64,000 nucleotides of DNA from positions 1 through 64,000 of the forward strand of contig JAPPLM010000032.1 of the NCBI GenBank assembly GCA_028874195.1. The letters run 5' to 3'. Position numbers and translations under genes: made by a program. Positions 4,034-45,768 of this stretch are shown piece by piece (within the stretch, counting starts at the first letter, position 1; each line of letters starts with the position of its first letter). The notes under the pieces are model-generated. The model had not been told where the DNA came from. It saw only the letters and a program-made list of their open reading frames with translations, and made no database searches. Source of the DNA: Chloroflexota bacterium (GTDB taxonomy: Bacteria; Chloroflexota; UBA11872; VXOZ01).

Positions 4034-5493
4034 TATTCGGTCTCCCGAGTGCGCACAGGCGGAAAGAGGATCACGTCACGTATCGAGGCGCTGTTGGTAA
4101 AGAGCATGGCCATGCGGTCAATCCCAATGCCTATGCCGCCGGTCGGCGGCATGCCGTATTCCAATGCCAATAAGAAGTCCTCGTCGAGCGGCTGCGCCTC
4201 TTCATCACCGGCGGCGCGCTCTTTCACTTGCTCTTCAAAGCGCTCACGCTGGTCCAGCGGGTCGTTCAACTCGCTAAAGGCGTTGGCGATCTCCAGCCCC
4301 CCCACAAACGCCTCGAACCGCTCGACGAGCCGGGGATCGTCCTCCCGGCGTTTCGCCAGCGGCGATAGCGCCACGGGGTAATCAAGGAGCAGGGTCGGCT
4401 GCACAAGCTTTGGCTCCACGCACTCCGCCAGTAGTTCATCCACCAGTGTAGCCCACGTGACGCGTTCCGGCACGCCAATTCCTTGGGCTTGCACCTGCGT
4501 TAGCAAGGCGTCGGTTTCAGGATGCGCATAGATGTCGATGCCGGTAGCGGATTCGATGGCCTCGTGCAGTCGTATCCGCTGCCACGGCGGCGTGAAATTG
4601 AGCACGTTATCGCCGTAGGGAACCTCCGGCGAGCCGTGGACGGCAAGGGCCACTTCATAGTAAAGCTGCTCAAGCAGGGCCATCATGTCCGCGTAGTCGG
4701 CATACGCTTGGTACGCCTCCAGCATGGTGAATTCGGGATTGTGATCGCGGTCCATGCCCTCGTTGCGAAAGGTGCGGCCAATTTCGTAGACCCGTTCAAA
4801 ACCGCCGATCAGGCAGCGCTTGAGGTAGAGTTCCGTGGCGATCCGCAGGTAGAAGTCCTGGTCGAGCGCGTTATGGTGGGTCACAAAGGGCCGGGCAAAC
4901 GCGCCGCCGTAGAGCGGCTGGAGCACCGGTGTCTCTACTTCCATAAAATCACGGGCATCGAAGTACGTCCGCACTTCGCGCACCACGCGACTGCGCACCG
5001 TAAAGGCCTGGCGTACCTCCGGATTGGCCGCCATGTCCAAGTAGCGGCGGCGCAGGCGGGTCTCCGTGTCGCGTAAGCCGTGGTACTTCTCCGGCGGGTT
5101 TTGCAGCGCTTTGGCCAGCATCTCGATGCGCCGGACTTCCAGGGTCTCTTCGCCGGTGCGGGTACGGAACAAGACACCTTCGGCGCCAATGATGTCACCA
5201 AGATCGTAGAGGTCTACAACAGTCGCATACGTGTCTTCGCCAAGAATGTTGAGGCGCAGATAGAGCTGAATACGACCTGAAGCATCTTCGATGTGGGCGA
5301 ACGCCGCCTTGCCCATTTTGCGGATGGTAAGGATGCGTCCGGCGAGGCGGACGGTCTCTTGGGCAGTGGAAAGTTCCTCGAAGCGGTCGAGGGCCGCTTG
5401 CGCGGTATGGGTGCGTTCAAAACGCAGGGGATAGGGCTCAATGCCCTTTGCGCGCAAGGCTTCAAGCTTGCGGAGGCGGAAATCTTCTGGCAT
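4033..5493 (-). CDS. lysS: Lysyl-tRNA synthetase, class II
   Basis: Charges tRNA-Lys. At 486 aa it has the usual LysS layout: an N-terminal OB-fold anticodon domain (about residues 45-140, with VRLAGRILTIRKMGKAAFAHI), then the class II catalytic core. Motif 2 reads FRNEGMDRDHNPEFTMLE and motif 3 GMPPTGGIGIGIDRMAML. The gene lies 66 bases after greA and shares one base with the serS start, so the three are likely cotranscribed. greA next to lysS is a common bacterial arrangement. Nothing in the sequence looks unusual. Confidence 0.96.
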   Translation of the reverse strand: MPEDFRLRKLEALRAKGIEPYPLRFERTHTAQAALDRFEELSTAQETVRLAGRILTIRKMGKAAFAHIEDASGRIQLYLRLNILGEDTYATVVDLYDLGDIIGAEGVLFRTRTGEETLEVRRIEMLAKALQNPPEKYHGLRDTETRLRRRYLDMAANPEVRQAFTVRSRVVREVRTYFDARDFMEVETPVLQPLYGGAFARPFVTHHNALDQDFYLRIATELYLKRCLIGGFERVYEIGRTFRNEGMDRDHNPEFTMLEAYQAYADYADMMALLEQLYYEVALAVHGSPEVPYGDNVLNFTPPWQRIRLHEAIESATGIDIYAHPETDALLTQVQAQGIGVPERVTWATLVDELLAECVEPKLVQPTLLLDYPVALSPLAKRREDDPRLVERFEAFVGGLEIANAFSELNDPLDQRERFEEQVKERAAGDEEAQPLDEDFLLALEYGMPPTGGIGIGIDRMAMLFTNSASIRDVILFPPVRTRETE

Positions 5494-5559
5494 CTTGCGT
5501 GAGCGATCTGCGTTTTTGACGAAGTCAGACGACCTTGACGTAGTCAGACGATTCCGTAG

Positions 5560-6024
5560 CTAATTCACCTCTTGAATTGTGTACGTCAGCGTGCCGGCGG
5601 GAACTTCAACGGTCACCTGCTCACCGACGCGGTGCCCCATGAGGGCCTGGCCCACGGGGCTTTCGTTGGAAATGCGGTTTTCCAGGGGATCGGCTTCCGG
5701 CGCGCCCACGATAGTAAACGTCTCACTATTGCCGTCATCGTCGGTGACGATAACCGTTGCGCCCAAGTCAACCTCAGTGCTGGCGTGGTGTTCGGACACC
5801 ACCGCATCGCGGAGAATGTGCTCGATCTCGATGATGCGGCCTTCAACGAAGGCTTGCTCTTGTTTGGCCTCGTTGTACTCGCCCATGTCGGAGAGATCCC
5901 CGCCGAATTCCATGGCCTCATGGATCCGCCGCACGATCTCAGGACGCCGCACGGATTTGAGTTCTTCGAGTTCTTGCAGCAGATTGTCTCTGCCCTGAGG
6001 CGTCAGCATATGCTGCTCCGCCAT
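5560..6024 (-). CDS. greA: Transcription elongation factor GreA
   Basis: GreA rescues backtracked RNA polymerase by stimulating transcript cleavage. At 154 aa it has the full two-domain form. The N-terminal coiled coil (residues 1-75) ends its helical hairpin at GDLSDMGEYNEAKQEQAF, where the acidic tip DLSDMGEY sits. The C-terminal FKBP-like domain ends with NRISNESPVGQALMGHRVGEQVTV. The start is supported by a strong ribosome binding site, AGGAGGATG, just upstream of the ATG at 6024. It is the first gene of greA-lysS-serS. Confidence 0.96.
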   Translation of the reverse strand: MAEQHMLTPQGRDNLLQELEELKSVRRPEIVRRIHEAMEFGGDLSDMGEYNEAKQEQAFVEGRIIEIEHILRDAVVSEHHASTEVDLGATVIVTDDDGNSETFTIVGAPEADPLENRISNESPVGQALMGHRVGEQVTVEVPAGTLTYTIQEVN

Positions 6025-6093
6025 GCCCGCATCCTCCTATAAAAGAATATGACGGAAAAGAGACCCCCAACTGGTCACTCTTTTCCAGTCACC

Positions 6094-6131
6094 ATTATAG
6101 TAGCAGGTTTTATTGCCGCCGGTCAACGGTT
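6094..6131 (-). promoter_or_regulatory. Candidate greA operon promoter
   Basis: On the minus strand a perfect TATAAT (6094-6099) lies about 70 bases upstream of greA. A TTGACC word occurs further upstream, but the spacing of about 21 bases is longer than the usual 16-18. The -10 call is therefore better supported than the -35. The remaining sequence between greA and the tRNA shows no gene. Confidence 0.4.
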
Positions 6132-6299
6132 GGATAGCACACGGGATTGTGCTGCGAGCCAGCACCGCAGGACGGGCCTGGCGCATCTCATATCACCGCA
6201 ATGGCCCATCGCAGAAGGGGCAGCTATCCGTAAGGCCTATCCGTGAGTCTCACTGGCAGCGGCCCACTGCAAGAAGAGCTTGGCATGAGAAGAAGGGGG

Positions 6300-6372
6300 C
6301 GCCCCCAGCGGGAATCGAACCCGCGTTACAGGCTTGAAAGGCCTGCGTCCTGGGCCACTAGACGATGGGGGC
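6300..6372 (-). tRNA. tRNA-Glu (anticodon TTC)
   Basis: Read on the minus strand from 6372, this folds as a standard cloverleaf. The acceptor stem is GCCCCCA/TGGGGGC, and the D-arm begins TCGTCTAGTGG as in bacterial tRNA-Glu. The anticodon stem CAGGC/GCCTG encloses loop CTTTCAA, giving anticodon TTC. The T-arm is GCGGGTTCGATTCCCGC. The discriminator is G (6300). The genomic sequence continues CCCCC, so the 3' CCA is not encoded and must be added after transcription. Confidence 0.96.
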
Positions 6373-6396
6373 AAGAGAGGTCTGCTTCACTCTCTC

Positions 6397-6425
6397 AGTA
6401 TACCGTAAAACGGCGCTTCTGCGAA
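6397..6425 (-). promoter_or_regulatory. Candidate tRNA-Glu promoter
   Basis: On the minus strand TATACT (6397-6402) is preceded, after a 17-base spacer, by TTCGCA (6420-6425). This would place the start about 18 bases ahead of the mature tRNA 5' end. The -10 is good and the -35 only partial. Confidence 0.4.
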
Positions 6426-6472
6426 GATGTGAAATCTCTACTCCCAAGGCCAATCGAACTAAGTTAATACGG

Positions 6473-6501
6473 TTGACAAAGGCCAAGATGGAGAATATAC
6501 T
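6473..6501 (+). promoter_or_regulatory. Near-consensus sigma-70-type promoter of the binding protein gene
   Basis: TTGACA (6473-6478), a 17-base spacer and TATACT (6496-6501) match the housekeeping promoter consensus in 11 of 12 positions. The binding-protein gene starts at 6539 with AAGGAG at 6527-6532, so the leader is about 30 bases. This is the strongest promoter I can see in the window and predicts high, weakly regulated expression. Confidence 0.75.
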
Positions 6502-6538
6502 GTTGTCAATATCGTGAACGGCAGCCAAGGAGAGGAAA

Positions 6539-7933
6539 ATGGACTTCCTACGGCAGTTTTCCCGTCGATCCATTTTGGCCGGGATGGCAAGTCTTGGCGT
6601 TGGAGGCGTAACCCTCGCCGCCTGCGGTCAGGTGCCCGCCGCACCAATGGAAGCGCCGCAAGCGGAAGAAAAGCCGCAGGCGGAAGCGAAAGAGGCTCCT
6701 AAGGAAATGGAGTCTAAGGTCATCAAGTACATGCACTACACCACGCAGCAGCAGGTGTGGGATGACACGTACGGCGGGGTCATCAGCCGCTATGAAGAGC
6801 GCAACCCGGACATTAAGGTGGAGCTTGACCTCGTTTCTGGCGGGCTGACGAACTTGTCGGAAAAGGCGGTATCGACGCACGCGGCAGGGATAACATACGA
6901 CATGTACTATGGCTGGTTCGGCTATATCAGCCAGTTCGCCACTGCCGAGATCATCCAGCCGCTCGATGCTCTCGTCGCGAAGGATGCCGCGTTCGATCTC
7001 TCCGAGTACTACGACTTTGCCTTGGAGAAGATCAACGGCAGGCTGTACGGCATCGCCTGGTTCATGGGCGCGCGCACCATCTGGTATAACGCCGACCTCA
7101 TGACGAACGCGGGTGTCGATTCGCCGAGCAAGTTGGATGCCGAAGGGAAGTTCACCTGGGACGCGCTGGCGGAGCTTTCTACAAAACTGACCACCCATGA
7201 GGGCGCTAATGTTTCCCAGTGGGGACTTTACTTTGGTGGCAATCGCCCCGACCGCATTCTCATTGCGCTCAAGTCATGGGGAGCGGACTGGTGGAACGAA
7301 GCGTTTAGCGGCGCGGCAATTAACTCGGCAGCCTCCGTGGACGCAGTGCAAGCTGTGCTTGATCTTGTCGTTAAGCATCAGGTACACCCTCCGCAAAATC
7401 GCAAAGAGTCCGACGTGGCGCCTTCTTTCAATGAGCAGAAACTCGCCATGGTCCTCAACGGCCCCTGGTACACGCGGTCGATCAACCAACAGATCTACGA
7501 GGGAGAAACGCCGTTTAATGTCGAGCTGGCTTCAGTGCCAGTCGGCCCGGGCGGACGCGGGACACCTATGCTCCTCAACGCATTCTGGATCGCGAGCACC
7601 TCGCCTGACCCCGATACAACCTGGGACTTCTACAAGTATCTGATTAGCGAGGAAGTGCAGCCGGATTGGGCAAACTTGGGCGGCGGCCGCTTCCCGGCTA
7701 ACCGTACGTACGCGCCGGTAGTGCAATATCCTTTCGAGAGTATAGAGACGTACCAAGCCATAGCCGAGGTCGGGATCCCCTTACGCCAGGTGGTCAAGCA
7801 GTCTGACGTCAACGGCGCGTGGGGCGAACTTTGGGGCCAGATGGAAGAAGGGCAGAAGACTGTTGCGGAGTCTTTGGCCGAAATTCACCAAGTCGCCGAC
7901 AACGCGCTGCAAGAGGGTGGCTGCATCTGCTAA
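6539..7933 (+). CDS. ABC transporter substrate-binding lipoprotein, family 1 type
   Basis: A 464-aa extracellular solute-binding protein of the sugar-binding (MalE-like) kind. The N-terminus holds a twin-arginine motif (SRRSILAG, Arg9-Arg10), a hydrophobic stretch and a lipobox LAAC with lipidated Cys29. A Pro/Glu/Lys/Ala-rich linker follows to about residue 58. The protein should be exported folded by Tat and anchored outside the membrane. The mature domain shows typical features (WYNADLMTNAG, MVLNGPWYTRS, RGTPMLLNAFWI). No permease or ATPase gene lies beside it, so its partners must be elsewhere. The ligand is probably a sugar or polyol, but this is not determined. Confidence 0.88.
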   Translation: MDFLRQFSRRSILAGMASLGVGGVTLAACGQVPAAPMEAPQAEEKPQAEAKEAPKEMESKVIKYMHYTTQQQVWDDTYGGVISRYEERNPDIKVELDLVSGGLTNLSEKAVSTHAAGITYDMYYGWFGYISQFATAEIIQPLDALVAKDAAFDLSEYYDFALEKINGRLYGIAWFMGARTIWYNADLMTNAGVDSPSKLDAEGKFTWDALAELSTKLTTHEGANVSQWGLYFGGNRPDRILIALKSWGADWWNEAFSGAAINSAASVDAVQAVLDLVVKHQVHPPQNRKESDVAPSFNEQKLAMVLNGPWYTRSINQQIYEGETPFNVELASVPVGPGGRGTPMLLNAFWIASTSPDPDTTWDFYKYLISEEVQPDWANLGGGRFPANRTYAPVVQYPFESIETYQAIAEVGIPLRQVVKQSDVNGAWGELWGQMEEGQKTVAESLAEIHQVADNALQEGGCIC

Positions 7934-38387: not shown

Positions 38388-40265
38388 GTGACTGAAGAGA
38401 ATGGATCTTCACAAGAATACGGCGTGGTGGTCGATAGAAATGTGATGATGACCGCCCGGGATGGCGTCAAACTGGGTACAGACGTCTATCGTCCGGCGTT
38501 GCCGGCTGAAGGCAGTCAGGGAGGTGTTGGCCTGACGCAGGAAGGGCTGGAAGCGGTTGCAGGGGAATTCCCCGTCATTCTCGAGCGCACCCCGTATGAC
38601 AAGACGAACCTCGGTCTGCGGCGAAAGGGGTATTATTACGCGCGGCGGGGGTACGTGGTGGTGATCCAGGACGTGCGGGGACGTTTTACCTCAGAAGGCG
38701 AGTGGTATGCCTTTGGCGATGAAGGGCCAGACGGCTACGACACCTGCGCCTGGATCGTGGAGCAGCCATGGTCAAACGGCAAGATCGCCACCACCGGATG
38801 CAGCTATGCGGGCTGCACGCAGAGCGCCCTCGCCTCACTGAACCCGCCCGGTCTGGCGGGCATGTTCGTGGAAGAAGGACCGTGGAACTACCACACCGCC
38901 TCCATGCGGCACAACGGCGCGTGCGAGATGCGCTTCATGATCTATGCCTTTCGCATGGCGACCACGAGCAAGGAAGCCCTCAGCGACCCGCGCTTGCGCC
39001 AGAGCCTGGATAACGCCTTTGCCAACGTGGCGCAGTGGGTGGAAAACGCGCCACTTAAGAAGGGCGTGTCGCCGTTGGCCGAACTGCCCACGTACGAAGG
39101 GTGGCACCTGGACGTGCTCACCCATGGCGACCTGGACGAGTATTGGGAACGCCCCGGGTATGGGCCGGAGCTCTTCTACGACGAGCACGCCGACGTGCCT
39201 ACGGTCTACTTCGGCGGTTGGTACGACTCCTACGCGCGCTCGACATGCACGAATTATGTCGAATTAAGCGCGCGCAAGGACTCGCCGCAGTCGCTCATCA
39301 TGGGCCCCTTCACCCACGGCACCGGCAGCGCCGAGGTCTCCCATGCCGGCGACGTCGACTTTGGCCGCGATGCCGCAATCTACGACATGAACGAGTTGCG
39401 GCTCCACTGGTACGACTACTGGCTCAAAGGAAAAGACACAGGGGTTGCTCAAACCAAGCCCGTGCAAATCTTCGTCATGGGCGGCGGCAGCGGGCAGCGC
39501 AACAGCGACGGTCGGCTGGACCACGGCGGGCACTGGCGGGCTGAAGATGAGTGGCCGCTCGCGCGTACCGCGTGGACACCCTACTTCCTCCACGCCGACG
39601 GCGGCCTGAGCCCAGATACACCATCACCCACTAAACAAGAAAGACAGAGTTCATTTACCTTCGATCCGGCCCATCCCGTTCCGACCATTGGCGGCAATCT
39701 CTCGGCGGGCGACCCCGTCCTCGTGGCGGGGGCTTACGACCAGCGCGGCGACGAACGCTTCTTTGGGTATAGCGGCAATCTGCCGCTCGCTGCTCGCCCC
39801 GACGTCCTGGTATTTCAAACGCCGCCGCTCGAAGAAGACATCGAAGTCACAGGCCCGCTCACCGTAAGACTGTGGATTAGCTCAACTGCCGTCGATACCG
39901 ACTTTACGGTGAAGCTGCTCGACGTGCACCCGCCCAACGGCGACTACCCCGAAGGCTTCGCCATGAATGTTACCGATAGCATCCAGCGGGCGCGTTACCG
40001 TAACAGCCGCGAAAAGGCGGAATTGATCGAGCCGGGCGTCCCGACGCCCCTCACCATCGAGATGTATCCAACGAGCAACGTCTTTGCGCAGGGCCATCGG
40101 ATCCGGCTGGACGTCTCCAGCAGCAACTTCCCACGCTTCGACGTCAATCCCAACACCGGCGAACCGCTGGGCCGCCACACGCGGCTCGAGGAAGCGCACA
40201 ACACGGTCTTTCACGAACCGGGGCGTCCATCGCATATCGTGTTGCCGGTGATTCAAAGCCCCTAG
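38388..40265 (+). CDS. CocE/NonD family serine hydrolase
   Basis: A 625-aa alpha/beta hydrolase of the X-Pro dipeptidyl-peptidase S15 type. The nucleophile Ser139 sits in TTGCSYAGCTQSAL, the Asp in YFGGWYDSYARST and the His in IMGPFTHGTGSAEVSH. The C-terminal jelly-roll domain includes LTVRLWISSTAVDTDFTVKL and ends HNTVFHEPGRPSHIVLPV. Family members cleave esters such as cocaine and acyl amides; the native substrate is unknown. It starts at GTG 38388 after AAGAGGAAG. No secretion signal is seen. Confidence 0.88.
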   Translation: MTEENGSSQEYGVVVDRNVMMTARDGVKLGTDVYRPALPAEGSQGGVGLTQEGLEAVAGEFPVILERTPYDKTNLGLRRKGYYYARRGYVVVIQDVRGRFTSEGEWYAFGDEGPDGYDTCAWIVEQPWSNGKIATTGCSYAGCTQSALASLNPPGLAGMFVEEGPWNYHTASMRHNGACEMRFMIYAFRMATTSKEALSDPRLRQSLDNAFANVAQWVENAPLKKGVSPLAELPTYEGWHLDVLTHGDLDEYWERPGYGPELFYDEHADVPTVYFGGWYDSYARSTCTNYVELSARKDSPQSLIMGPFTHGTGSAEVSHAGDVDFGRDAAIYDMNELRLHWYDYWLKGKDTGVAQTKPVQIFVMGGGSGQRNSDGRLDHGGHWRAEDEWPLARTAWTPYFLHADGGLSPDTPSPTKQERQSSFTFDPAHPVPTIGGNLSAGDPVLVAGAYDQRGDERFFGYSGNLPLAARPDVLVFQTPPLEEDIEVTGPLTVRLWISSTAVDTDFTVKLLDVHPPNGDYPEGFAMNVTDSIQRARYRNSREKAELIEPGVPTPLTIEMYPTSNVFAQGHRIRLDVSSSNFPRFDVNPNTGEPLGRHTRLEEAHNTVFHEPGRPSHIVLPVIQSP

Positions 40266-40372
40266 ACAACGTCGTTGTCTGCTTTTGTCCAACGACGGAT
40301 GCAAGATTACTATAGCATAGAGGTGATGAGACAAGGGTCGCCTATGCGGCTGAGTTAGAAGGTACATGCCCA

Positions 40373-41464
40373 ATGCAGAACTACATCACAGAAGAGGAGG
40401 AAATCGAAGGGCTGGGTGATCCTGACTCTTCAACTTGGGGTGACTACCCCATAGACACTCTGCTGATTCGCAATGACCAGCGTACGATACATGATGTCCT
40501 GCGTCGCATCAAGCAGAACCAGTTCGTCATGGATCCGGATTTTCAACGTGACTTCATCTGGGATGACGCTAAACAGAGCAAGCTAATCGAGTCTGTCCTG
40601 ATGCGGATACCCCTCCCTGTATTCTACCTCGCCGAGGATAGCCAAGGACGAATGGTTGTTGTAGATGGATTACAGCGCCTTTCTACTTTCCGACGGTTTG
40701 TCAATAATGAGCTCCGGCTACGACTTCCTGATAGAGAGGCGTTAGATCGCAAGAAGTTCGACGATTTGACACCCAAACTGCAAAACCGCATCGAAGATTG
40801 CAATCTCATCCTCTATGTAATTGATGCGAAGGTGCCAGAACAAGCAAGACTAGATATTTTTGAGCGTGTAAACGGGGGTGTGCCTCTTACCCGACAGCAG
40901 ATGCGTAACTGTTTGTACATGGGAGAAGCAACTCGTTTCCTAAAGACAGAGTCTGGTACACCACTATTCTTGGAAGCTACTGGCAAGAGCCTTAGAAGTT
41001 CAACAATGCGAGATCGAGAGTTTCTCAACCGGTTCTGTGCTTTCCAAACGCTTGAAATCAATTCATATCGTGATATGGATGAGTTTCTCGCGGAATGCTT
41101 AAAGAGGATGAACGCTGAAACGGAGATTTTGTCTGGCTTGTCAAAGCAGCTGGAGACCACACTCCACAATAACTACCAGTTATTTGGAAAGCACGCGTTT
41201 CGAAAGCACGTTCCAGAGCAAGAGCATCGGAACGTGCTTAATGCATCCCTTTGGGATGTCATGACGACAGGACTGTCGCGGTTTTCACGAGAAATCGTTA
41301 GAGCCAATGCGGGAGAACTTAAAGAAGGGTTTTATCGACTCTTGCGGGACGAAGGATTTGAGTACTCCATTACTTACAGTCCCAATAGCGTGAAACAGGT
41401 AAAGCATCGTTTTGAGATGGTTAATAAGATGTTAGAGGAAGTATTCGGTGCTCACTCAGCTTGA
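40373..41464 (+). CDS. DUF262 (GmrSD N-terminal-like) protein
   Basis: A 363-aa protein. The DUF262 core is clear: DPDFQRDFIWDDAKQSKLIE and IPLPVFYLAE, then VDGLQRLSTF at residues 97-106, the ParB/GmrS-like motif thought to bind nucleotides. The second half is helical. It lacks the HNH (DUF1524) domain that completes GmrSD-type restriction enzymes. The ATG follows GAAGG. The next gene, an ATPase, starts inside its last 17 bases, so the two are almost certainly coupled. I infer a sensor or effector role in a defence module; neighbours at 41448 and 42739 are the likely partners. Confidence 0.82.
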   Translation: MQNYITEEEEIEGLGDPDSSTWGDYPIDTLLIRNDQRTIHDVLRRIKQNQFVMDPDFQRDFIWDDAKQSKLIESVLMRIPLPVFYLAEDSQGRMVVVDGLQRLSTFRRFVNNELRLRLPDREALDRKKFDDLTPKLQNRIEDCNLILYVIDAKVPEQARLDIFERVNGGVPLTRQQMRNCLYMGEATRFLKTESGTPLFLEATGKSLRSSTMRDREFLNRFCAFQTLEINSYRDMDEFLAECLKRMNAETEILSGLSKQLETTLHNNYQLFGKHAFRKHVPEQEHRNVLNASLWDVMTTGLSRFSREIVRANAGELKEGFYRLLRDEGFEYSITYSPNSVKQVKHRFEMVNKMLEEVFGAHSA

Positions 41465-42701
41465 ACTGCGCTTCTTCAAGTGTTTCAAGATCTTGCGACT
41501 TCCCCTTGCGCCGCTAACCCTGCTCACGGGACTGAACGCCTCCGGCAAGTCTTCGGTTCTTCAGGCACTCGTGCTTTTGCATCAGACTATGCGCGAGCAT
41601 GAGTGGTCGACCAGACTCGCGCTTAACGGCGCCGGCGTGCGCTTGGGAACAAGGTCGGACGTGGTCGACGAGGTATTCGGTAGGGACAAATTCGGCATTA
41701 ATTTGGGCTACGACGAGAGCTACTGTGCATGGGAGTTTGAGGGCGATCGGCGCGATATGTCTATGGAAATCCGGAGTGTTTCCGTCAATGGCCACCTACT
41801 TAAGCGGCCCCAGGTGTTGCACTACTTGCTGCCACCAACAATTTCCCAGGGAATGTTCGGCCCCACGCCAAACGATCCTCAGTATTTGCCAAAAGTGCTG
41901 CCACCGGACGAGGTTAAGTCACTGTACTCGCTGATTAATCACTTGCGGGGCCTGACGTACATTACCGCGGAACGGATCGCGCCCCAAGAGACTTATCCGC
42001 TCGAAGACCCTCATGTCGTGAACGTCGTCGGCCCGCGGGGTGAACATGCAGTGAGTGTTCTGCATTGGGGCCGGGATGAACCAGTTACGGATGAACTTGC
42101 GTTGTCGGGTGTGTTCGCTACTCGCCTGTGGCAGGTGCAAGAGCGCATGCGCACATTCTTCCCGGGTTGCACCCTGGATTTGCAGCAAGCACCGCGTGCA
42201 AACGCCGTCACGTTGGGACTGCTCACGTCGGATACTACTGGATTCCATAGTCCTATTCACACGGGTTTTGGCCTCACCCAAACCCTACCAATTGTAGTGG
42301 CTGCCCTTTCCGCTGCTCCGGGCGACATCATCTTGATTGAGAATCCCGAGGTGCATCTCCATCCTGCAGGCCAAGCACAGATGGGACAATTCATAGCCGA
42401 TATTGCGTGCGCAGGCATACAGGTGCTCGTAGAAACACACAGCGATCACGTGCTGAACGGCGTGCGCCGCGCCGTCAAGAGAGAGCGGCTTACTGCCGAT
42501 CAAGTCGCCATCCACTTTTTTAGACTTCGGTCCGAAGAGCACGCCCAAGTGCTGAGCCCCGTAATGGATCACTCCGGCAACATTGACGACTGGCCGGATG
42601 GCTTCTTCGACCAATTCGATAAGGACGCAAGCTACTTCGCAGGATGGATTGAAGAAGACGAATCAGAGGGGTTCATGGAGCAGGACGACTCCCCGTTCTA
42701 G
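41448..42701 (+). CDS. DUF3696-type AAA/ABC-like ATPase
   Basis: A 417-aa ATPase of the RecF/SMC/OLD-like group. Walker A is GLNASGKSS (Lys34). The Walker B region reads DIILIENPEVHLHP with Glu298, and ETHSDHVLNGVRRAVK is the following His-Ser-Asp switch. The C-terminus SGNIDDWPDGFFDQFDKD is the DUF3696 mark. No nuclease (TOPRIM) domain is fused. It starts with GTG at 41448, overlapping the DUF262 gene by 17 bases. Such ATPases often work with a separate effector in antiphage systems; here the effectors would be the DUF262 protein or the gene at 42739. Confidence 0.85.
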   Translation: MLTQLELRFFKCFKILRLPLAPLTLLTGLNASGKSSVLQALVLLHQTMREHEWSTRLALNGAGVRLGTRSDVVDEVFGRDKFGINLGYDESYCAWEFEGDRRDMSMEIRSVSVNGHLLKRPQVLHYLLPPTISQGMFGPTPNDPQYLPKVLPPDEVKSLYSLINHLRGLTYITAERIAPQETYPLEDPHVVNVVGPRGEHAVSVLHWGRDEPVTDELALSGVFATRLWQVQERMRTFFPGCTLDLQQAPRANAVTLGLLTSDTTGFHSPIHTGFGLTQTLPIVVAALSAAPGDIILIENPEVHLHPAGQAQMGQFIADIACAGIQVLVETHSDHVLNGVRRAVKRERLTADQVAIHFFRLRSEEHAQVLSPVMDHSGNIDDWPDGFFDQFDKDASYFAGWIEEDESEGFMEQDDSPF

Positions 42702-42738
42702 TAGTTGGGCTATTTCAGACGGAAGGACAATCAATCTG

Positions 42739-43695
42739 TTGGATCTTCTCTTCAATGACCTCTCACTCCATGGGCAATTTCACGACCGAGTGGTCTTTCA
42801 AGAGGCCATCGGGCGTTTGATGACGATGCGGACTATAGCATGGGGCTTTGGGCGGGACATCCAGTGTACCCGAAATGCCGCCAACGCGCTCGTGACGCCA
42901 GTAGGGACAATACAACAGACCGCGCAGCACTTGCGCAGAGACCAACGCAGTTCCTTACTGCAGTGGCTTACGCGCCAGGGCCCCTTTTGGGTAGACCTTC
43001 GTTGGCATGGAGAGGACGACTACCTAGAGTGCAACGGAGAAGCAGTAACTGATACCGGCCTTGGTGAGGCCGCCTATCGCACATTCCACGATGTGGAGTG
43101 TAGCGCTGTAAGCGTGGAACCTTCTTCTTGGCTAACTTCGCCACTGGTGGTTCAATGGTGGGAAGCCGAACAACCAAGATGCGTTGACGTACTTAATTTC
43201 TGGGATCCTAAGACGCTCAAGTCTGCACTTGCCGCCCAGCCCATGCAACTTGCATCCTGGGCAGATCTAGAAGCGGCTGCTCGAACTCGCTACGAAGGAC
43301 TGTCGTTTACACCAAGTAGCTTTGCTCCTTTACAGGGTCAGCCGTTCAACAGAAGCGCAGCACGCAGCTTGTTCTTGCGACTGGCCGTCCTCAACAAGCT
43401 CAAGAACTGCTTCAACGCACGAGGTGAACGCACACCAGAAGGTCGCGACATTTACCAGCAGCACTTCACAGGAGACAGGTCTTGGTTTTCCGATTCATCC
43501 GATACTGAGAAATCGAAATTCAAAGAAGCCTTGACGTTTCCGCATCCTGACAAAGAAGGTGAATTCCTTTTCTGCACGTGGCACGGCAAGGCGGGAATGC
43601 CGCAACAGCCACTTCGAATTCACTTTTCATGGCCCGTAAGTGCAAACGAATCCCTGTATATAGCCTACGTAGGACCAAAGCTCACTCGACGGTGA
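42739..43695 (+). CDS. Unrecognised protein, third gene of the DUF262-ATPase set
   Basis: About 318 aa if translation begins at TTG 42739, 12 bases after GGAAGG; CTG 42736 is an alternative. The open frame extends back to 42583 inside the ATPase gene but those residues look like out-of-frame translation. I recognise no family. Features visible are a basic N-terminal third, a middle region with ASWADLEAAARTRYEGLSF, and a C-terminus with FCTWHGKAG (Trp281) and IHFSWP-type strands, ending YIAYVGPKLTRR. It is cytosolic. Its position right after the ATPase suggests a third subunit, possibly substrate binding or effector. Confidence 0.65.
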   Translation: MDLLFNDLSLHGQFHDRVVFQEAIGRLMTMRTIAWGFGRDIQCTRNAANALVTPVGTIQQTAQHLRRDQRSSLLQWLTRQGPFWVDLRWHGEDDYLECNGEAVTDTGLGEAAYRTFHDVECSAVSVEPSSWLTSPLVVQWWEAEQPRCVDVLNFWDPKTLKSALAAQPMQLASWADLEAAARTRYEGLSFTPSSFAPLQGQPFNRSAARSLFLRLAVLNKLKNCFNARGERTPEGRDIYQQHFTGDRSWFSDSSDTEKSKFKEALTFPHPDKEGEFLFCTWHGKAGMPQQPLRIHFSWPVSANESLYIAYVGPKLTRR

Positions 43696-43699
43696 ATAG

Positions 43700-43882
43700 T
43701 TGGCGGGATTTTATAGCGTTGACTCAGTGAATACGCCCGACATGGATATTGAGCCTGAGTTTGAGCTTCGCGCTTACGCCCTTCAAACGACCGACAACAA
43801 GCCGTTTGTTACAAAGTTTGGGGGGAATTCAGCGAGCATCTTCGGTAGAGTTGCAGGCGGCAGAGGTCACCATACCAAGTGA
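43700..43882 (+). CDS. Doubtful 60-aa open frame
   Basis: A TTG-started frame of 60 codons that ends in GTGA, overlapping the GTG of the next gene by four bases. The product (FYSVDSVNTPDMDIEPEFE) shows no recognisable domain. The overlap may mean coupling or chance. It may equally be non-coding spacer between the module and the hydrolase gene. Confidence 0.2.
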   Translation: MAGFYSVDSVNTPDMDIEPEFELRAYALQTTDNKPFVTKFGGNSASIFGRVAGGRGHHTK

Positions 43883-45768
43883 AGTCAGATTCCATCCATG
43901 AACAGACCGCCGGACTAGCGCCGGCCGACTACATTGCCCGCATTACGCCGGCTGATCCGGTCACGGTTGGCCAATACGGCACGTGGGACATCGTGGTAAC
44001 CGTTGGCGCGCAGGGCATTGCGCTGGGGGGTGGGGTGCGTATAGCGCCGCCGCACCGCGAGAAGCAGCGCTGGGACGTGGGCAACGTAGTTGCCGCCACC
44101 AGCGTGGCGGGATCAAGCGTCCGCGTAGAGGTCGTAAACGGCCACCCGCTCTCCTACCACCATGCGCAGTTTCCCGTCATCTATGCCGTGCTCGAAGGCC
44201 AGCCGCTGCGTGGCGGGGACACGCTGACGGTCACGCTCGGTCATCCCGGCAGTTACGTCTCCGGTTTCCGTCAGCCGGCACAGGTTCAGGACATCATCAG
44301 TGTCGATACGTTCTTTGCGGTGGGGGTCGACATTGAAGGCAATACCGCTTACAGCAACCCGGACTATCCCGTCCCCGGCGGGGGACGCCACTTTCCGTTG
44401 CGGCAGCAACCGGCATTAGAGGTCTTGCCCGCTGCGCCGGCCACGCTCGGTATTGCCGTGCCGCAGTTTGCAGCAGAGTCTAATCCGGCACAAGTTTTCA
44501 TACACGCCAGAGATGCTTTCGGCAACGTGTGCGAGGGATTTCATGGTTCGCTCAAGCTTGAGACCGTCAAAAGCAGCGACGGTACGCCAATAGCCGAAGA
44601 TTCCGCCATTACGGGAGAGCGGGGTCTGGCACTGGCGCAAATCGGCGTCCCGGCACGATCAGGTCCGTATTTGGTGCGGGCACGGGATGAAGCCAGCGGT
44701 ATCATCGGCAAGAGTTGGCCGGTCGCGCCGGACTTTCGACCGGGCGGATTCAACATCTACTGGGGTGACCTCCACAATCACACCAATCTATCCGGCGACG
44801 GGGTCCGTGACATCGATGACGCCTACTGGTATGCGCGGCACATCAGCGGCCTGGACTTTGTGGCGATTACCGACCATGAGGGCAGCAAGGACTGGGAGCG
44901 CACCCAGGAGTGTGCCAAAGCATATAACGCGCCTGGAGAGTTCACCGCGTTCCTTGCTTACGAATACAGTTGGGCCGGCGCTTACGGGCACCGCAACGTC
45001 TTCTATCTCGATGACGACATGCCCTGTCCCACGCCAGACGACGCGAATGACCTCTGGGACCAACTGCCACCGGGACGAGCCCTTGTCATTCCACACCACC
45101 CGAATACGCACTCAGAGGGAGGCACGACATTTGGCCGCTGGCAGCCGACGGATTGGAGCGCGCATCATCCCGAGTTTCAGCGCCACATTGAAATATGTCA
45201 GTTGCGCGGCTCTTTCGAAGTGGAAGAAATCGGCGGGCCCGTCGTCCTCGGCGGTAAGGGCTCCTCGGCGCGCAGCGCGCTGGCGAAAGGGCTGCGCTTG
45301 GGCTTTGTCGGGGGCACCGACAACCACCGCGGTCATCCCGGATCACGCATGGATACCATGGGCGGTATTAGCTTCCGATTGCGTCCCGTGGGCGGCATAA
45401 CTGCCGTCCTTGCCAGCGAGTGCACGAGGGAGTCTTTGTGGGAAGCTTTGCTGGCACGCAGGACGTACGCCACCACGTGCGAGCACATTCTGCTTGACTT
45501 CAGCGTCAATGGCGCGATCATGGGCAGTGCCATCGCAGCGGAAGCAGAATTCACGATACGCGTGGCCGCGATTGGCGCGAACGAAATCGATCGCATTGAC
45601 GTGATTCGCGATGGAGAGGAAGTTCACTCCCTATCGGTCAACGGTGCCGCATGCGAGCTTGAATGGAACGATCGCCCCGCAGAAGAGCCGGCCTACTACT
45701 ATGCTCGCGTGTTTCAGAAAGACGGCAACGCTGCCTGGGCAAGTCCTATCTGGATTGAAAGCAAATAG
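43879..45768 (+). CDS. CehA/McbA-like PHP hydrolase, paralogue of 34737
   Basis: A 629-aa protein starting with GTG. The N-terminal beta region shares YGTWDIVVTVGAQGIALGGG with its paralogue at 34737. The PHP-like core begins YWGDLHNHTNLSGDGVRDI (metal motif HNH), followed by FVAITDHEGSKDW, VIPHHPNTHSEGG and GGTDNHRGHPG. The ending, KDGNAAWASPIWIESK, resembles the paralogue's last strand. The reaction is probably a metal-dependent hydrolysis, of unknown substrate. With 34737 it flanks the accessory region. Confidence 0.75.
   Translation: MKSDSIHEQTAGLAPADYIARITPADPVTVGQYGTWDIVVTVGAQGIALGGGVRIAPPHREKQRWDVGNVVAATSVAGSSVRVEVVNGHPLSYHHAQFPVIYAVLEGQPLRGGDTLTVTLGHPGSYVSGFRQPAQVQDIISVDTFFAVGVDIEGNTAYSNPDYPVPGGGRHFPLRQQPALEVLPAAPATLGIAVPQFAAESNPAQVFIHARDAFGNVCEGFHGSLKLETVKSSDGTPIAEDSAITGERGLALAQIGVPARSGPYLVRARDEASGIIGKSWPVAPDFRPGGFNIYWGDLHNHTNLSGDGVRDIDDAYWYARHISGLDFVAITDHEGSKDWERTQECAKAYNAPGEFTAFLAYEYSWAGAYGHRNVFYLDDDMPCPTPDDANDLWDQLPPGRALVIPHHPNTHSEGGTTFGRWQPTDWSAHHPEFQRHIEICQLRGSFEVEEIGGPVVLGGKGSSARSALAKGLRLGFVGGTDNHRGHPGSRMDTMGGISFRLRPVGGITAVLASECTRESLWEALLARRTYATTCEHILLDFSVNGAIMGSAIAAEAEFTIRVAAIGANEIDRIDVIRDGEEVHSLSVNGAACELEWNDRPAEEPAYYYARVFQKDGNAAWASPIWIESK

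Follow-up and report, generated by a model that had tools for sequence, protein, structure and literature searches.

The window, a 64,000-nucleotide stretch of a Chloroflexota contig (JAPPLM010000032.1), contains three plus-strand open reading frames (ORFs), i.e., ORF1 (nsnA, 40373..41464, ATG start, 363 aa), ORF2 (nsnB, 41448..42701, GTG start, 417 aa) and ORF3 (nsnC, 42739..43695, TTG start, 318 aa). The genes are adjacent and co-directional in the order nsnA-nsnB-nsnC, with a 17-bp overlap between ORF1 and ORF2 and a 37-bp gap from the ORF2 stop to the ORF3 start, confirming the coordinates and tight packing given in an earlier note on this DNA. Mechanically defined, ORF3 begins at a TTG at 42583; alignment with homologues places the start at the TTG at 42739, and the aligned position is occupied by TTG in L029, GTG in L003 and ATG in L030 and L031. 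The motif GGAAGGA at 42721-42727 may serve as the nsnC ribosome-binding site.

Pfam searches agreed with the domain content that the earlier note had read from the sequence. The ORF1 product carries a GmrSD_N/DUF262 domain (2.5e-23), of the ParB/Srx NTPase type, and a DUF1524/HNH domain was not found by Pfam in any of the three proteins. Two of its motifs, P55-D-F-Q-R59 and D98-G-x-Q-R102, are invariant in the alignment. The ORF2 product is an ATPase (AAA_15, AAA_21) with a DUF3696 tail (1.8e-14), and its alignment conserves a Walker A motif (GLNASGKS), the catalytic-glutamate stretch (IENPEVHLHP) and the H-loop (ETHSDH). The third protein, which the note had been unable to recognize, likewise gave no Pfam match above cut-off, BECR toxin families included.

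All three proteins were nevertheless matched by PADLOC models. ORF1 matched NsnA PDLC03877 (2.6e-112; residues 25-358 on profile positions 39-383 of 385), ORF2 matched NsnB PDLC03878 (1.3e-101; residues 1-397 on positions 1-342 of 345) and ORF3 matched NsnC PDLC03896 (5.5e-115; residues 1-318 on positions 1-319 of 319), the last being one of many divergent NsnC models. We take NsnABC to be the Menshen system, a naming that follows the PADLOC models; Menshen (NsnA-NsnB-NsnC) was reportedly described by Millman et al. in 2022. These matches uphold the earlier suggestion of a defense system. The accompanying proposal, that the trio is undescribed and matches no named system, did not survive the defense-profile search, an outcome that the note itself had counted against it: the same three protein families occur in the same order in Menshen. 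Chance can be excluded, because near end-to-end profile matches with E < 1e-100 were obtained for all three proteins and the trio is conserved in distant bacteria. Judged from sequence, the trio is almost certainly a horizontally acquired Menshen anti-phage operon, and the locus itself is a further copy of an already described system. Considered as a whole, acquisition of a Menshen operon together with the mechanism proposed below is, in our judgment, a very likely best explanation.

Other systems share individual components with the trio. NsnA has the DUF262 domain of GmrSD, BrxU and SspE (E 0.006 against BrxU 7p9k), whereas the DUF1524 nuclease that partners this domain in those systems, and in GmrSD type IV restriction as GmrD/HNH, was not detected by Pfam in the three proteins. 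The same domain links ORF1 to PD-T4-2_A (2.1e-34); PD-T4-2, however, has a second gene of its own, of the PD-T4-2_B type, which is absent here. PD-T4-2_B was not among the matches listed, and the best matches of ORF2 and ORF3 were NsnB and NsnC. The NsnB ATPase resembles AriA of PARIS (AriA/AriB) and PtuA of Septu and retrons, both of which regulate a partner effector. The AriB or PtuB partner is absent here, in contrast, and the DUF262 gene of the trio is absent from those systems. In particular, no PtuB (HNH) partner was found, the third gene matching NsnC models only.

The operon lies within an insertion spanning 40259..43877, recognized from flank comparison and GC content, between an S15 peptidase gene on the left (38388-40265) and a DUF3604 gene on the right (43879-45768). 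Five same-genus genomes lack the trio, and the flanking genes are 14, 14, 17, 64 and 233 bp apart in these genomes, as opposed to 3.6 kb in the window. Homology to the same-genus genomes ends at 40254-40258 and restarts at 43875-43880, and the GC content of the insert is 46-57%, compared with about 61% in the flanks. On the basis of this comparison, the insertion is evidently recent, with the operon as its only cargo.

Several further observations were made around this site and in related genomes. Beyond the S15 peptidase gene, the segment 36811-38323 encodes a nucleotidyltransferase (PADLOC candidate PDC-S09, 2.6e-24) and, on the minus strand, a NucS-like nuclease (PADLOC candidate PDC-S11, 1.1e-39); the equivalent interval in G002 and G004 measures no more than about 0.2 kb, which suggests that this gene pair is a further insertion into this hot spot. 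The genus is also unusually rich in DUF3604 genes, at about 17-25 matches per genome (G000-G005). A different, PD-T4-2-like DUF262 pair is present in two same-genus loci (L037:2867-4410 and L038:5715-7291), flanked by genes for an oligopeptidase-like and a GlmU-like protein; the second gene of the L037 pair matches PD-T4-2_B (2.9e-6).

The earlier note had expected the three genes to act as a unit, and their joint occurrence elsewhere bears this out. Among close NsnC homologues, ten full-length ones were examined (L003, L024-L027, L029-L033), and in every case adjacent nsnA and nsnB preceded nsnC, in this order. These loci include an Acidimicrobiia genome (L003), in which NsnC is 54% identical to that of the window, plasmids of Crinalium, Cupriavidus and Gluconobacter, a viral contig (L024) and five further genomes of the phylum (L029-L033). 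When viral contigs were scanned with NsnB alone, 26 loci were recovered, 23 of which had a DUF262 gene immediately upstream; of the other three, L071 and L080 are truncated on that side, and no such gene was detected in L081. A third gene lies directly downstream in nearly all complete viral loci found in this way, and an NsnC model was the best PADLOC match for each of the nine nsnB-associated third genes scanned. When NsnC itself was used to scan viral contigs, a single-sequence query found no relative and an alignment query found one. Within the phylum, Menshen with a window-type NsnC is sporadic, as the corresponding model matched only 9 of 400 genomes, with full-length matches in six, this genome included. 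Identity to the window proteins among homologues was 20-55% for NsnC, 32-72% for NsnA and 34-75% for NsnB. The same genome carries a second, divergent Menshen locus on the minus strand (G000:C67:96543-99767, i.e., L028:4544-7768), with nsnA at 6620-7768, nsnB at 5493-6620 and an nsnC that ends at 4544 and belongs to another NsnC model (PDLC03879/PDLC03912; PDLC03879 1.1e-57).

Published information on Menshen is consistent with this gene content. According to a review, the DUF262 gene of the system lacks DUF1524, and protection is lost when this gene is mutated or deleted (PMC10952713). No published mechanism for Menshen was found in the searchable literature. The same review ascribes a predicted OLD nuclease to a Menshen component (PMC10952713), whereas a TOPRIM/OLD nuclease domain was found in none of the three proteins here, Pfam giving no TOPRIM match in NsnA, NsnB or NsnC. 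The closest PDB relatives of NsnB are OLD (6p74), PtuA (8ee4) and AriA (8ux9). Since NsnB is closest to these ATPases and has no TOPRIM match, it was rejected as an OLD nuclease, and the effector should be another subunit.

NsnC, which the note had put forward as a possible effector, is supported as the likely one. Two domains can be distinguished. The N-terminal domain (42739..43242, plus strand; residues 1-168), with the motif NDLSLHGQF, is shared with third genes bearing unrelated C-termini. The C-terminal domain (43243..43692, plus strand) is probably a RelE/BECR-type toxin domain, as suggested by its conserved basic residues, its AlphaFold2 (AF2) model and the tail replacement described below. 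Conserved basic residues lie mostly in the C-terminal half of the protein, in the columns of H282 (43582-43584), K284 (43588-43590), R293 (43615-43617), H295 (43621-43623) and a K/H at 314 (43678-43680), all on the plus strand. H282, R293 and H295 are invariant in the NsnC alignment and K284 nearly so; H282 and R293 are still invariant in a more divergent NsnC set. AF2 modeled the C-terminal half with a pLDDT of 94.9 and a pTM of 0.89, as a helix followed by a strand-helix-helix unit and a series of strands, and this predicted order of elements fits that of RelE. A full-length model built on three sequences was not confident (pLDDT 47.6) and was set aside. When the C-terminal model was searched with Foldseek, nothing significant was returned (E 0.22 at best in the PDB and 0.37 in a viral library; most TM-scores < 0.3), and the fold was thus not confirmed by this route. 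The top PDB row was 6cp8, a CdiA toxin of the BECR kind, and HigBA2 (5jaa) was in row 11, both non-significant and suggestive only, with TM-scores <= 0.25. Profile-profile comparison gave weak similarity to local RelE and HigB2 sets (P 0.016-0.044), compared with P 0.17-0.61 for two controls and P 0.56 for a YoeB set, and a PDB sequence search with NsnC retrieved nothing relevant.

A natural replacement of the NsnC tail was found at L104, a locus without an adjacent nsnA in a draft genome assembly (6% contamination) from the same class. Over about 245 residues, the L104 NsnC shares 51% identity with the second NsnC of the genome studied here; beyond that point, its sequence becomes a RelE/ParE toxin tail. 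Residues 250-294 match Pfam ParE_toxin at 8.6e-4 and 20.3 bits, just below the cut-off of 23 bits, and many free-standing, toxin-sized ORFs of the phylum resemble the tail, with identities of up to 52%. Residues 195-253 match the NsnC C-terminal profile (5.4e-5) and residues 217-295 match free RelE-type ORFs, with matches to toxin ORFs of the genus starting at 217; because these two regions overlap, the switch lies inside the C-terminal domain. An nsnB-nsnC pair whose NsnC has a RelE/ParE toxin tail was seen at L154:1651-3706 (G288:C252); nsnA is not adjacent, and a nucleotidyltransferase-like gene lies upstream on the opposite strand.

The two halves of NsnC were also recovered separately. 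Five third genes (L068, L072, L073, L080, L081) matched only the N-terminal profile (E 0.011 to 6e-9); four others, together with one HEC-07 candidate defense protein, clearly matched only the C-terminal profile, as did L079 weakly, and neither half-profile matched in 9 of 36 sequences at the threshold used. The HEC-07 candidate (L111:1489-3054, minus strand, 522 aa) carries the NsnC C-terminal domain as a fusion, showing that this domain travels outside Menshen. The third genes of L068, L072, L073, L080, L081 and L115 share a further C-terminal type with a YEF...HGY motif, for which Pfam matches were absent in those scanned (L073 and L115). NsnC may thus be a modular, polymorphic-toxin-like effector, in which a conserved domain would dock on NsnA/NsnB and the C-terminal toxin domains (among them WHxK/RIH here, RelE/ParE in L104 and an unassigned YEF/HGY type) would be interchangeable; we give this model an even chance.

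The mechanism that we propose is in our view about as probable as all alternatives combined. NsnA, the DUF262 NTPase, would sense invading or modified nucleic acid, while NsnB, as an OLD/PtuA/AriA-like ATPase, would act as scaffold and as a regulator keeping NsnC inactive. Upon infection, NsnC would be freed or activated, and its RelE/HigB-like (BECR) C-terminal domain would cut RNA, probably mRNA or tRNA, thereby stopping translation and phage growth. The N-terminal domain would be the docking part. ATPase-held toxins such as that of PARIS provide an analogy for NsnC being held by NsnA/NsnB.

A different division of labor, which we consider a good deal less probable, would have DNA cut by NsnA, acting as a ParB/Srx nuclease, or by an OLD-type nuclease activity of NsnB, with NsnC merely recognizing the target or phage and owing its diversity to an arms race. 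NsnC does vary more than its two partners, as a sensor would be expected to, DUF262 proteins are found in DNA-cutting type IV systems, and the reviewed OLD prediction points the same way. Neither DUF1524 nor TOPRIM was found in NsnA or NsnB, however, and the conserved basic residues of NsnC cluster in one domain, the one exchanged with a toxin domain. An improbable variant keeps NsnC as the toxin and makes its C-terminal domain a ParE-kind BECR protein that acts by binding a target, gyrase for example, rather than as an RNase. The Pfam family matched by L104 (PF05016) covers both gyrase-poisoning ParE and mRNA-cutting RelE, which leaves room for this idea; yet the window-type domain has conserved H, K, R and H residues at what would be the positions expected in RNase members. 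Finally, the idea that the trio is a separate, new system of three genes, sharing merely DUF262 and an ATPase with Menshen but otherwise unrelated to it, is effectively ruled out, for while Pfam and NCBIfam neither name the trio nor recognize its third gene, the PADLOC Nsn models cover the three proteins almost end to end in the Menshen gene order.

An RNase-type effector also agrees with a description published under another name. The ptuXYZ system comprises a DUF262 protein without DUF1524, a PtuA-like ATPase and a third protein with two domains, modeled as PIN-like with a YoeB/HigB-like BECR C-terminus, and the paper does not mention Menshen (Gerdes, 2025; PMC11980606). The three-protein architecture, described under a separate name, corresponds to that of the window trio; from this architecture, we infer that ptuXYZ is probably Menshen under a second name. 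What is new here is this likely synonymy, the natural replacement of an NsnC tail by a RelE/ParE toxin and the evidence for modular NsnC ends. The comparison yields the hypothesis that the Menshen effector is NsnC, acting as an RNase toxin, and the prediction that NsnC tails are exchangeable between systems. If NsnC is modular in this way, one sensor-ATPase chassis would serve many warheads, which would explain the many NsnC models in PADLOC.
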